Shown piece by piece: positions 8,846-49,892 of a DNA stretch of 64,000 bases. Every line of letters begins with the position of its first letter. Position 1 is the first letter of the stretch. The notes beneath the pieces were generated by a model. It was given only the letters and a program-made list of their open reading frames with translations. It searched no databases and was not told the DNA's origin. Source of the stretch: Acidobacteriota bacterium (GTDB lineage Bacteria > Acidobacteriota > Terriglobia > Bryobacterales > Bryobacteraceae). The stretch covers positions 1 through 64,000 of the forward strand of contig JACQZR010000189.1 in assembly GCA_016213775.1 (NCBI GenBank). The letters run 5' to 3'. A program made the position numbers and the translations under genes.

Positions 8846-8873
8846 TTGACTTTCGCGCGTGGGCTGGTAGGCT
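8846..8873 (+). promoter_or_regulatory. Promoter-like sequence facing into microprotein cassette A (plus strand)
   Basis: TTGACT at 8846-8851 and TAGGCT at 8868-8873 are separated by 16 nt. The flanking GTATTGAC and a downstream TGGAGGG are conserved at the same places in copy B (49678-49706) although the spacer differs. Transcription from here would be antisense to the 23-aa peptide gene. No experimental evidence is available. Confidence 0.4.
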
Positions 8874-8886
8874 GAATGGAGGGAAA

Positions 8887-8908
8887 CCCCGCCCGTTGGC
8901 GGGCGGGG
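8887..8908 (-). terminator. GC-rich hairpin after microprotein A
   Basis: CCCCGCCC and GGGCGGGG form a strong hairpin 12 nt downstream of the stop codon of the minus-strand 23-codon frame. On the minus strand it is followed by TTTCCC, so it could be a weak intrinsic terminator. Copy B has a hairpin at the same place with a different sequence. Confidence 0.5.
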
Positions 8909-8920
8909 TAAGTTTACAGC

Positions 8921-8992
8921 TTAACCAAAGCGAATCGTGAAGACGATTCGCCCGATTCTCACCGTAAAGCTTGCGCGTATGCGGATGTGCAT
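8921..8992 (-). CDS. Microprotein A, 23 aa, basic
   Basis: ATG 8992 to TAA 8921 encodes a 23-residue peptide beginning MHIRIRASF and ending FTIRFG, very basic, with alternating hydrophobic and Arg residues. The Shine-Dalgarno AAAGGAGGT (9002-9010) precedes the ATG by about 9 nt. Copy B at 49751-49822 has the same length with 11 of 23 identical residues. Many nucleotide differences are synonymous (Ile ATC/ATA, Ser AGC/AGT, Gly GGG/GGA, Arg CGA/CGT, Arg CGC/CGT, Gly GGT/GGC), the signature of a translated, constrained frame. It could be a type I toxin, a leader peptide or a signalling peptide. I do not recognise the family. Confidence 0.65.
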   Translation of the reverse strand: MHIRIRASFTVRIGRIVFTIRFG

Positions 8993-9003
8993 TCGGGTTT
9001 ACC

Positions 9004-9064
9004 TCCTTTCCCGGGGCTTGACTCACGGTTGCAGCCGTGAGTCCCCCGGTCAGGAGAAAGGAGC
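9004..9064 (-). promoter_or_regulatory. Conserved hairpin sequestering the microprotein A ribosome binding site
   Basis: Read on the minus strand, CTCCTTTC (9064-9057) pairs perfectly with GAAAGGAG (9011-9004), which contains the Shine-Dalgarno sequence. Inside are CCGGGG/CCCCGG (9045-9050 with 9012-9017) and a terminal CCGTGAG/CTCACGG hairpin. A TCCTGA bulge lies on the 5' arm. Stems are conserved in copy B, while the apical loop differs. Such a fold would block translation until opened by a ligand, heat, a protein or RNA processing. Confidence 0.65.
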
Positions 9065-9369
9065 GCTCCCAAATGCGTTCCGCACCTGCGGTATCCCTCC
9101 GAGAATATAGTGGCGTCTGAAGGGGATTCCTCTCATCCCACTTTTGCCAGTTCCTTTTTTGGCCACGGCGCATCCACCGTCAACCAAAATGGCCGTGGCG
9201 TCCCTCGCTCAAACAGAAAGGGGTATTGCGAAATAGGAATAGCAATCGTCCAGGACGGACAACAGGTAGGTCACACCAAAAGAAAACCGCCCAAACCGGG
9301 CTACCGCAAAACCAGCTCCGGCACAGGCTCAGCCGAAGCTTCCTGACGGAACCACGCAGTCATATAGTC
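9065..9369. other. Intergenic region with no recognisable gene
   Basis: Between the microprotein leader and the end of the glycosyltransferase gene I see no coding signal. A minus-strand TATATT at 9105-9110 could be a -10 box for microprotein A, but no good -35 accompanies it. Confidence 0.35.
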
Positions 9370-10455: not shown

Positions 10456-11067
10456 TTGAATCGAAGTGACGCGTTTACGCTCATGTGGTCCAAACCGTTT
10501 CACAAGGAACTAATATGGGTTGGAACGGAACGGACCTCAGTGGAAACGTTGCAGGATCAAGTGGCGCGGCTGTTTGAGGAGACCAGAGAGGACGTGTACC
10601 GTTATCTACTCACCATCGGGCTCTATCCCCCGCAGGCGCAGGAGACCGTCCAGGAAGTTTTCCTCCGTTTATACGCCTCTCTTAAAAAGGGCGAAGACAT
10701 TAAGAATGTGCGGGCGTGGATCTTCCGCGTCGCGCACAACGTTGGCCTCAAGGTCAGGGCCAAACAGAGTGGATTGCCGTTCGACCCGGAGTTGGAAGCC
10801 TCGCTCGCCAGCCCCGCTCGCAATCCCGAACAGAGTTTGCTCGAGCGAGAAAAAACGGTTCGCTTCCACCGTGCCGTGGAAGGTCTTTCCGAGCAGCAGC
10901 GGCGTTGTCTCTCGCTGCGGTTGCAAGGGTTGCGGTACCCCGAAATCGGGGAAGCGTTGGGTATCAGCGCGTCGGCTGTCAGTGAGTTCCTCCGCCGCGC
11001 CGTCACACGCTTAAAGAAGGTTGGCGGCTCCGCCAAAACGGACTCCGCCGAAGAGGGTAAGGCTTGA
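10456..11067 (+). CDS. ECF-type RNA polymerase sigma factor (up to 203 aa)
   Basis: Sigma-70 region 2 is seen in ARLFEETREDVYRYLLTIGL, ETVQEVFLRLYASL and NVRAWIFRVAHNVGLK. Region 4 is seen in LSEQQRRCLSLRLQGLRYPE and IGEALGISASAVSEFLRRAV, the helix-turn-helix that contacts -35. Region 3 is lacking, as expected for the extracytoplasmic-function group. The true start may be later than 10456, for example a GTG at VETLQDQ. The next gene encodes its probable zinc-finger anti-sigma factor, and a TonB receptor follows, so the operon probably couples an envelope or substrate signal to expression. Confidence 0.88.
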   Translation: MNRSDAFTLMWSKPFHKELIWVGTERTSVETLQDQVARLFEETREDVYRYLLTIGLYPPQAQETVQEVFLRLYASLKKGEDIKNVRAWIFRVAHNVGLKVRAKQSGLPFDPELEASLASPARNPEQSLLEREKTVRFHRAVEGLSEQQRRCLSLRLQGLRYPEIGEALGISASAVSEFLRRAVTRLKKVGGSAKTDSAEEGKA

Positions 11068-49677: not shown

Positions 49678-49706
49678 TTGACATTCCCTCGTTCGCTGCG
49701 TACTCT
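49678..49706 (+). promoter_or_regulatory. Promoter-like sequence facing into microprotein cassette B (plus strand)
   Basis: TTGACA (49678-49683) and TACTCT (49701-49706), 17 nt apart, precede TGGAGGG. GTATTGAC and TGGAGGG are shared with copy A at 8844-8884, whereas the sequence between them differs. Transcription would run antisense through microprotein B and its ribosome binding site. Confidence 0.45.
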
Positions 49707-49750: not shown

Positions 49751-49822
49751 TTAGCCAAGACGAATCGTGATTGCGAAACGTCCGAGCGTCAGTCGTATAC
49801 TGACGCAAATGCGTATCTGCAT
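49751..49822 (-). CDS. Microprotein B, 23 aa, basic
   Basis: ATG 49822 to TAA 49751 encodes 23 residues beginning MQIRICVSI and ending ITIRLG. The Shine-Dalgarno AAAGGAGGT lies 6 nt upstream. Residues identical to copy A include M1, I3, R4, I5, S8, G14, R15, T19, I20, R21 and G23; most others are conservative (V/L, I/L, I/F). Its context matches copy A: it converges on the end of a plus-strand gene (here the MATE transporter) and is preceded by the same hairpin. Confidence 0.65.
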   Translation of the reverse strand: MQIRICVSIRLTLGRFAITIRLG

Positions 49823-49829
49823 TGGTTAC

Positions 49830-49892
49830 CTCCTTTCCCGGGGTTTGGCTCACGGGGTTCAGACCGTGAGTCCCCCGGTCAGGAGAAAGGAG
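49830..49892 (-). promoter_or_regulatory. Conserved hairpin sequestering the microprotein B ribosome binding site
   Basis: CTCCTTTC (49892-49885) pairs with GAAAGGAG (49837-49830), CCGGGG (49878-49873) with CCCCGG (49843-49838), and CTCACGG (49870-49864) with CCGTGAG (49855-49849). The loop differs from copy A in length and sequence while every stem is kept. Confidence 0.65.

Follow-up and report, generated by a model that had tools for sequence, protein, structure and literature searches.

The locus studied here raises the question of whether an open reading frame of only 23 codons is a real gene, and, if so, what such a gene might be for; gene finders easily overlook genes of this size. It lies in a 64,000-nucleotide stretch of DNA from an acidobacterial genome (hereafter the window), which contains two related elements, copies A and B (Table 1). 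A first-pass annotation, made from the sequence alone, had placed a 23-residue microprotein gene at 8921-8992, which holds exactly; it left the strand unstated, and this is the minus strand. On the plus strand the same positions read LTKANRED... in frame, without a start codon at 8921. It had also claimed that copies A and B have identical start, stop, length and frame, that eleven residues are identical and that at least seven codons differ only at the third position. All of this was confirmed: 11 of the 23 residues are the same and eight codons show a third-base-only difference, seven of these being synonymous. Within the ORF, 47 of 72 bases are identical; synonymous differences number 12 (17.7 sites) and nonsynonymous ones 13 (51.3 sites). 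The DNA match between the two elements reaches beyond the ORF (115 of 147 columns, E 2e-25). The annotation was silent on the copy number, the tandem arrays, the opposite-strand promoter and the end-paired mRNA that are described below.

Table 1. Positions of the elements of copies A and B in the window
Feature	Position	Strand	Remarks
Copy A microprotein ORF	8921..8992	-	ATG to TAA, 23 codons plus stop; MHIRIRASFTVRIGRIVFTIRFG, then stop
Copy B microprotein ORF	49751..49822	-	MQIRICVSIRLTLGRFAITIRLG, then stop
Copy A Shine-Dalgarno sequence	9002..9009	-	AAAGGAGG, upstream of ATG
Copy B Shine-Dalgarno sequence	49829..49836	-	AAAGGAGG, upstream of ATG
Copy A leader hairpin, pairing the Shine-Dalgarno sequence	9001..9066	-	MFE -39.1, z -4.05; predicted unpaired probability of Shine-Dalgarno sequence 0.04
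Copy B leader hairpin	49830..49892	-	MFE -34, z -3.89
Copy A predicted sense mRNA with paired ends	8876..9104	-	MFE -129.8, z -10.61; transcript ends inferred
Copy A candidate sense promoter GAGAG-N17-CACTA	9108..9134	-	boxes and spacing shared; function inferred
Copy A antisense promoter TTGACT-N16-TAGGCT	8846..8873	+	motif match; would read back over the ORF
Copy B antisense promoter TTGACA-N17-TACTCT	49678..49706	+	motif match
Stretch an antisense transcript must cover to include ORF, Shine-Dalgarno sequence and leader hairpin	8874..9066	+	inferred from promoter position alone
G+C-rich hairpin between stop codon and antisense promoter	8886..8909		near 5' end of the would-be antisense RNA

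Copy number and distribution

Intact copies (20 in all) were recovered from three genomes of one family, 15 of them from the genome of the window (G000), three from G005 and two from G156. The ORF counts 23 residues in 17 copies, 24 in two and 25 in one. A blastn search with copy A gave 14 strong and two weak places in the genome of the window (10.96 Mb, 314 contigs), and matches in two of the 12 genomes of the genus, G000 itself and G005 (three places). Two more copies, both divergent, came to light with an RNA model of the plus-strand core in G156, which belongs to a different genus of the same family. With this model, matches were obtained in 3 of 237 genomes of the family, 3 of 257 of the order and 2 of 399 in a sample of the class that did not include G005. 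Because only the 8 to 13 best candidates per genome were scored in the RNA-model searches, under stricter filters, weak copies may have escaped them.

The 237 family genomes were also searched with a profile of 16 peptides, which gave 18 places in G000, three in G005 and two in G156, plus a single weak place in G234. Copy A, itself a row of the profile, was recovered at 8924-8992 on the minus strand (E 2.4e-9), and the places on contigs C178 (two), C224 and C130 were absent from the blastn list. Confirmed copies are present in 3 of the 237 family genomes, and the same profile yielded no further confirmed copies in a class sample of 389 genomes. Left out of the copy count were two weak places on contig C195 (C195:3203, E 0.014, and C195:5648, E 0.63) and two units that are cut by contig ends (the second on C271 and the first on C283, C283:90842). 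In a wider search, an ORF pattern that fits only part of the copies matched a single record in a collection of 84,980 species (JAFDVS010000081.1, two matches 320 apart), which we take to be G005 itself and not an additional genome; the pattern had no match in a viral contig collection. The exact hairpin pattern matched nothing in the genome or viral contig collections, a tblastn search of plasmids and phages with a single peptide (the copy on C28) gave no match at E up to 1, and copy A had no blastn match among plasmids.

Weak profile matches in G234, G402, G408 and G270 were rejected: the strict form of the opposite-strand promoter (see below) is absent within 400 nt on both strands, and by eye, without folding, no family-like leader could be recognized. 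They were taken as chance matches, the least certain being that in G402 (E 5.8e-6 for one genome, with 389 searched). This last match, on contig C38 of a genome from another family of the class, sits inside a longer ORF ending in RRIETIALSFRLG...

Selection on the peptide

The first-pass annotation had inferred purifying selection on the peptide from the comparison of A and B, and considered that a dN/dS near 1, or homologues with disrupted frames, would refute this. For the 13 aligned copies of exactly 23 codons, out of the 20 intact ones, we found a pN/pS of 0.455, or 0.394 when G156 was omitted. Not included were the three copies of 24 or 25 codons, one G005 copy with identical ORF DNA (G5_3) and three later finds. 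The five other frames gave ratios of 0.935, 1.814, 1.079, 0.519 and 1.578 and are interrupted by stops in 13, 6, 9, 8 and 13 of the 13 rows, respectively; the ORF frame is interrupted in none. The reverse frame at 0.519 comes near the ratio of the ORF, yet it is not open. Compared pairwise, the copies differ on average by 0.328 at the first codon position, 0.136 at the second and 0.499 at the third. For codons 2-23 the ratio is 0.483; in 200 column shuffles it averaged 0.95 and never fell below 0.617. Considering that the copies are mostly paralogues and that RNA structure overlaps the ORF, the ratio is not a clean dN/dS.

The search for homologues that the annotation had called for bears on the frame as well. 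Intact ORFs differ in length by whole codons only, and among the 18 uncut places that were found irrespective of an ORF (at a DNA E-value of 2e-11 or better in G000, or with the RNA model) 17 are intact (G000 12 of 13, G005 3 of 3, G156 2 of 2); the two weak C195 places fall outside these 18. Against strict conservation of the frame stand C216, which keeps the early part of the ORF and runs to a different end after 22 codons, C130, which has lost the 3' part, and C195:3203, an apparent remnant of an element with a Shine-Dalgarno sequence and part of the leader hairpin and no ORF. Taken together, the substitution pattern is that of coding sequence and the peptide is likely under purifying selection, as inferred from sequence alone; the earlier claim is supported to that extent.

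Characteristics of the peptide

The consensus reads MRIRISVSxxLTLxRIVxTIRFG. Asp and Glu are absent from all 20 copies, and Lys plus Arg number 3 to 5. When the hydrophobic moment was scanned from 60 to 180 degrees it peaked at 170 degrees in 17 of 20 copies (0.59-0.75, shuffle p <=0.016), the same copies showing values of only 0.10-0.29 at 100 degrees; the three copies that carry an extra residue depart from this pattern. Given the maximum at 170 degrees, the peptide fits an amphipathic extended strand. It would thus resemble an amphipathic cationic strand and not the usual transmembrane helix, as judged from the sequences without structure prediction. The best 19-residue window has a mean hydropathy of 0.49-1.80 over the 20 copies, so that the criterion of a hydrophobic alpha-helical transmembrane segment, for which the usual cut-off is 1.6, is not met; only G156_2 exceeds that value.

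The annotation knew of no named family with this sequence, and this held: none of 16 members searched matched Pfam, NCBIfam or PADLOC. The PDB sequences gave no match either, and PHROGs gave weak matches only (phrog_3670 for 4 of 16 members and phrog_21697 for 1 of 16, best E 0.012 each). At the RNA level, no Rfam family reached its gathering threshold anywhere in the window, the best match near copy A being DsrA (24.1 bits against 60 required, E 0.015). Cationic beta-strand antimicrobial peptides alternate basic or polar and hydrophobic residues, and the family recalls them in this respect, a general resemblance that does not rest on comparison with any member. Unlike these peptides, the family shows no export signal that we noticed, would be made inside the cell and is under predicted antisense control.

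A predicted folded mRNA with a hidden ribosome-binding site

A leader hairpin is predicted for each of the 20 intact copies, with 21-27 pairs and an MFE of -34 to -44 kcal/mol. At least four of the five bases of the Shine-Dalgarno core are paired in 20 of 20, with a predicted unpaired probability of 0 to 0.28. The leaders of six copies for which z-scores were determined gave -4.05, -3.89, -2.35, -3.61, -4.83 and -3.89. The shape of the hairpin is kept despite other sequence: the copies on C178 and C224 have different apical stems, and the G156 hairpin pairs CUCUCCC with GGGAGAG where copy A has CUCCUUUC with GAAAGGAG. The string CCTCCTTT was at one point considered as an anti-Shine-Dalgarno sequence and rejected, as it is the complement of the real Shine-Dalgarno sequence; a comparison with 'cuckoo' anti-SD RNAs was dropped on the same ground.

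The predicted fold extends to the mRNA as a whole. In copy A, GGAGGGA (9100-9094) would form an end helix with its 3' complement around 8878-8883, and in the fold from the 5' GGAGGG to the 3' CCCUCC both the Shine-Dalgarno sequence and the AUG are paired, none of 200 shuffles being as stable. A 5' GAGGG is present in 16 copies, and for 15 of these pairing of the ends over at least five pairs is predicted (z -4.6 to -10.9, 40 shuffles each), the exception being G5_1, whose MFE structure has none. For C202a and the three G005 copies an earlier GAGGG was taken, which made the folded stretches 20-30 nt longer; the copies without a 5' GAGGG (B, C283b and both of G156) were excluded. By eye, C127 shows an apparent matching exchange in the end helix (8878-8883 with 9095-9100 in copy A), AGAGGG with CCCUCU, and C206 and C287 a shifted version of it.

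Promoter motifs on both strands

All 18 intact copies of the congeneric G000 and G005 carry the motif TTGAC[AT]-N16/17-TA[CTG][TCG]CT on the strand opposite to the ORF, the -10 box ending 44-47 nt past the stop codon. Mean pairwise identity is 91% in the -35 box and 85% in the -10 box, against 35% in the first 11 spacer bases and 62% in the last five, and by eye the TG of an extended -10 is at its usual place in 17 of 18. The fact that 18 of 18 copies match at one place with a free spacer makes the motif look like a promoter that is used, with the proviso that the boxes themselves were part of the search pattern. Judged singly the motif is not strong. In 16 of 18 copies the -10 box agrees with TATAAT in just 3 of the 6 positions, and a stricter promoter scan reported none at A or B. 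When the antisense promoters of the 20 copies were scored singly, between 0 and 44% of 100 mononucleotide shuffles of their own region did as well. Both G156 copies have weak versions only. The pattern TTGACN-N15 to 17-TACNCT has a single match in the window, at copy B (0.06 expected); the TAGGCT of copy A does not fit it.

Upstream of the leader, 15 of the 20 intact copies share a second motif, GAGA[GA]-N17-C[AC]CT[AT], followed 7-9 nt on by GAGGG. The spacing of its boxes is always 17, though 15 to 19 was allowed. It is missing from B, C283b, G5_3 and both G156 copies, and for this reason expression of B and C283b is doubtful. Over the whole genome GAGAG/CACTA with at most one mismatch occurs at 29 sites, against 6 for a reversed control; 13 of the 29 lie inside elements, and 10 of the 16 outside have the start of an ORF of at least 60 codons within 40 nt, compared to 34% of random positions. 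This proximity lends modest support to GAGAG-N17-CACTA as a possible promoter. On C49 and C74 two similar coding stretches (LDREL-PTL-VD-LYR) follow GAGAG-N17-CACTA, a hint that these and the microprotein genes share a class of promoter.

A probable type I-like arrangement and its alternatives

We favour, with moderate confidence, a multicopy family of genes for a 23-residue cationic peptide under control resembling that of type I toxin-antitoxin systems; transcripts, translation and toxicity are all inferred. The arrangement is called type I-like on account of the predicted shut mRNA, the conserved reverse promoter motif, the scattered and tandem copies, the patchy distribution and the decayed members. 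It cannot be called a proven member, since antisense RNA and toxicity are inferred only and the type of peptide differs. Type I toxins are usually shorter than 60 residues with a helical transmembrane segment. A small ORF (<60 aa) with a ribosome-binding site is present (20 intact copies of 23-25 aa), and an mRNA structure that hides this site, which is common among such systems without being universal, is met as a prediction in 20 of 20. For a pairing antisense RNA there is the promoter motif in 18 of 18 copies of two genomes, weak in the third, and no transcript data. Against the type I-like reading, most type I toxins have a hydrophobic transmembrane helix and this peptide, again judged from sequence alone, does not.

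According to this model, the opposite-strand promoter would make a steady antisense RNA over ORF, ribosome-binding site and leader, and this RNA would pair with the sense mRNA, so that translation is blocked or the mRNA marked for decay. The full-length mRNA would itself be translationally shut until processed or refolded. Upon induction of the sense promoter (GAGAG-N17-CACTA), or a fall in antisense RNA, the peptide would be made, and it may then act on membranes as an amphipathic cationic strand and stop the growth of the producing cell. A bolder version, about which we are more doubtful than convinced, holds that this is a lineage-specific toxin-antitoxin-like family of the Acidobacteriota, in which the toxin is a 23-residue cationic amphipathic beta-strand peptide, the mRNA is end-paired with hidden Shine-Dalgarno sequence and start codon, the antisense RNA comes from an extended -10 promoter and the sense promoter, being of a different type, is perhaps tied to an alternative sigma factor.

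The main rival, which remains possible, is a non-toxic regulatory or signalling microprotein whose translation is held by the folded leader and tuned by the antisense RNA. The evidence on ORF, hairpin and antisense promoter fits it equally well, the lack of a classical transmembrane helix agrees with it, and so does the maintenance of many slightly different peptides in one genome. The restriction to 3 of 237 family genomes, the tandem arrays and the decayed copies, however, better fit a selfish or addictive locus. A nonautonomous, MITE-like mobile element carrying the microprotein gene is unlikely, although compatible with the type I-like reading. It is suggested by the varying genes around the copies and their frequent position right behind a stop codon (by eye), by the tandem arrays and by the 10 of 12 genus genomes (G000 included among the 12) that have no match. 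Against it, shared terminal inverted repeats or target duplications were not seen (by eye), five neighbouring proteins were tested and no transposase was among them, and searches of the genus with the flanks of A and B, judged from the hits alone, revealed no element-free site having both flanks.

It is very unlikely that the conserved product is a structured noncoding RNA from the plus strand and the ORF incidental. The plus strand does have the better promoter motif, and stretches of it are more stable than their shuffled versions (z -6.36 and -5.60), but the synonymous-biased change, the whole-codon length differences and the conserved Shine-Dalgarno sequence, start and stop speak for the ORF, as do the copies that were recovered by the peptide profile and missed by blastn; moreover, copy A stands out still further from its shuffles on the minus strand, be it over a longer stretch (Table 1). 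Least likely of all is that the ORF acts as a leader peptide or attenuator for the gene behind it, as a short ORF with a structured leader might suggest: in both A and B the sense ORF is followed by the 3' end of an opposite-strand gene, and no constant co-directional downstream gene was seen (by eye).

Comparison with known systems

The type I-like reading invites comparison with described loci. The full-length hok mRNA is folded and closed to ribosome and antitoxin until its 3' end is cut (PMC4147584, whose reference list also carries the term 'mRNA end-pairing'). An mRNA folded shut and an antisense RNA are what hok/sok of plasmid R1 and the present family would have in common, the end pairing here being merely predicted. 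Unlike the family, hok depends on an upstream ORF, mok, of which we noticed no counterpart, and Hok is larger than a 23-residue peptide; the two are not known to be related in sequence. Zor/Orz of E. coli comprises a tandemly duplicated gene for a 29 aa peptide with an antitoxin RNA, and in the ZorO and Fst mRNAs the ribosome-binding site is hidden in secondary structure, for ZorO in the 5' UTR (PMC8309996). Tandem short peptide genes and a ribosome-binding site hidden by 5' structure are thus shared, whereas ZorO is a hydrophobic inner-membrane peptide (PMC8309996) and OrzO binds its target ahead of the ribosome-binding site; in the present family the promoter is found beyond the stop codon, and a transcript from it would run over the ORF.

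Ibs/Sib of E. coli has five copies, the Sib RNA spans the coding region and the ribosome-binding site, and IbsC counts 19 aa (PMC4147584, PMC8309996). The likeness lies in the multicopy repeat units, the tiny ORF and the antisense RNA over ORF and ribosome-binding site, which is only predicted in our case. The difference is that IbsC is a hydrophobic helix, whereas the family has a basic amphipathic strand and a long hairpin that hides the Shine-Dalgarno sequence; a profile match between the family peptides and Ibs was not found. Ldr/Rdl of E. coli, whose repeats each hold one small ORF together with an antisense RNA, three of the four being arranged in tandem (PMC4147584), is similar in its tandem repeat units with one small ORF each, but Ldr has 35 residues and Rdl around 60 nt, and the transcript here must be longer to cover the mRNA. 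Strong conservation of promoters and ribosome-binding sites within E. coli has been described for three type I loci (PMC11264685).

In the literature searched we found no type I toxin-antitoxin system of acidobacteria and none of three peptide strings of the family; subscription papers were mostly outside this search, so that absence is unproven. If the family is indeed type I-like, it would be, as far as that literature goes, the first described in this large soil phylum, and its peptide would be unusual in design. A single genome holds many natural variants, some of them decayed, which offer a ready set for finding the residues that matter.

Arrays, decayed copies and neighbouring genes

Tandem units occur on C202 (343 bp apart), C283 (315), C271 (316, cut by the contig end) and on C149 of G005 (320). 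The contigs C202, C283, C271 and C243 end inside or near element arrays, and the true copy number is therefore probably above the assembled count. At around 1100-1330 on C224 of G000 a decayed tandem unit directly precedes the intact copy, with the Shine-Dalgarno sequence and an MRISI... start kept and the remaining ORF lost. The truncated copy on C216 retains the antisense promoter motif, which now overlaps its new stop codon.

Copy A is neighboured by a Gluconate_2-dh3 gene and, on the other strand, a family 2 glycosyltransferase gene, and copy B by a MatE gene and a DUF1326 gene. Neighbouring genes vary between copies and no common one was seen, by eye and with only five window proteins searched for their family. 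At 10456-11067 on the plus strand of the window, around 1.5 kb from copy A, lies a gene that by sight, without a family search, looks like one for an ECF-like sigma factor, and the gene after it may, also by sight, encode its anti-sigma partner.
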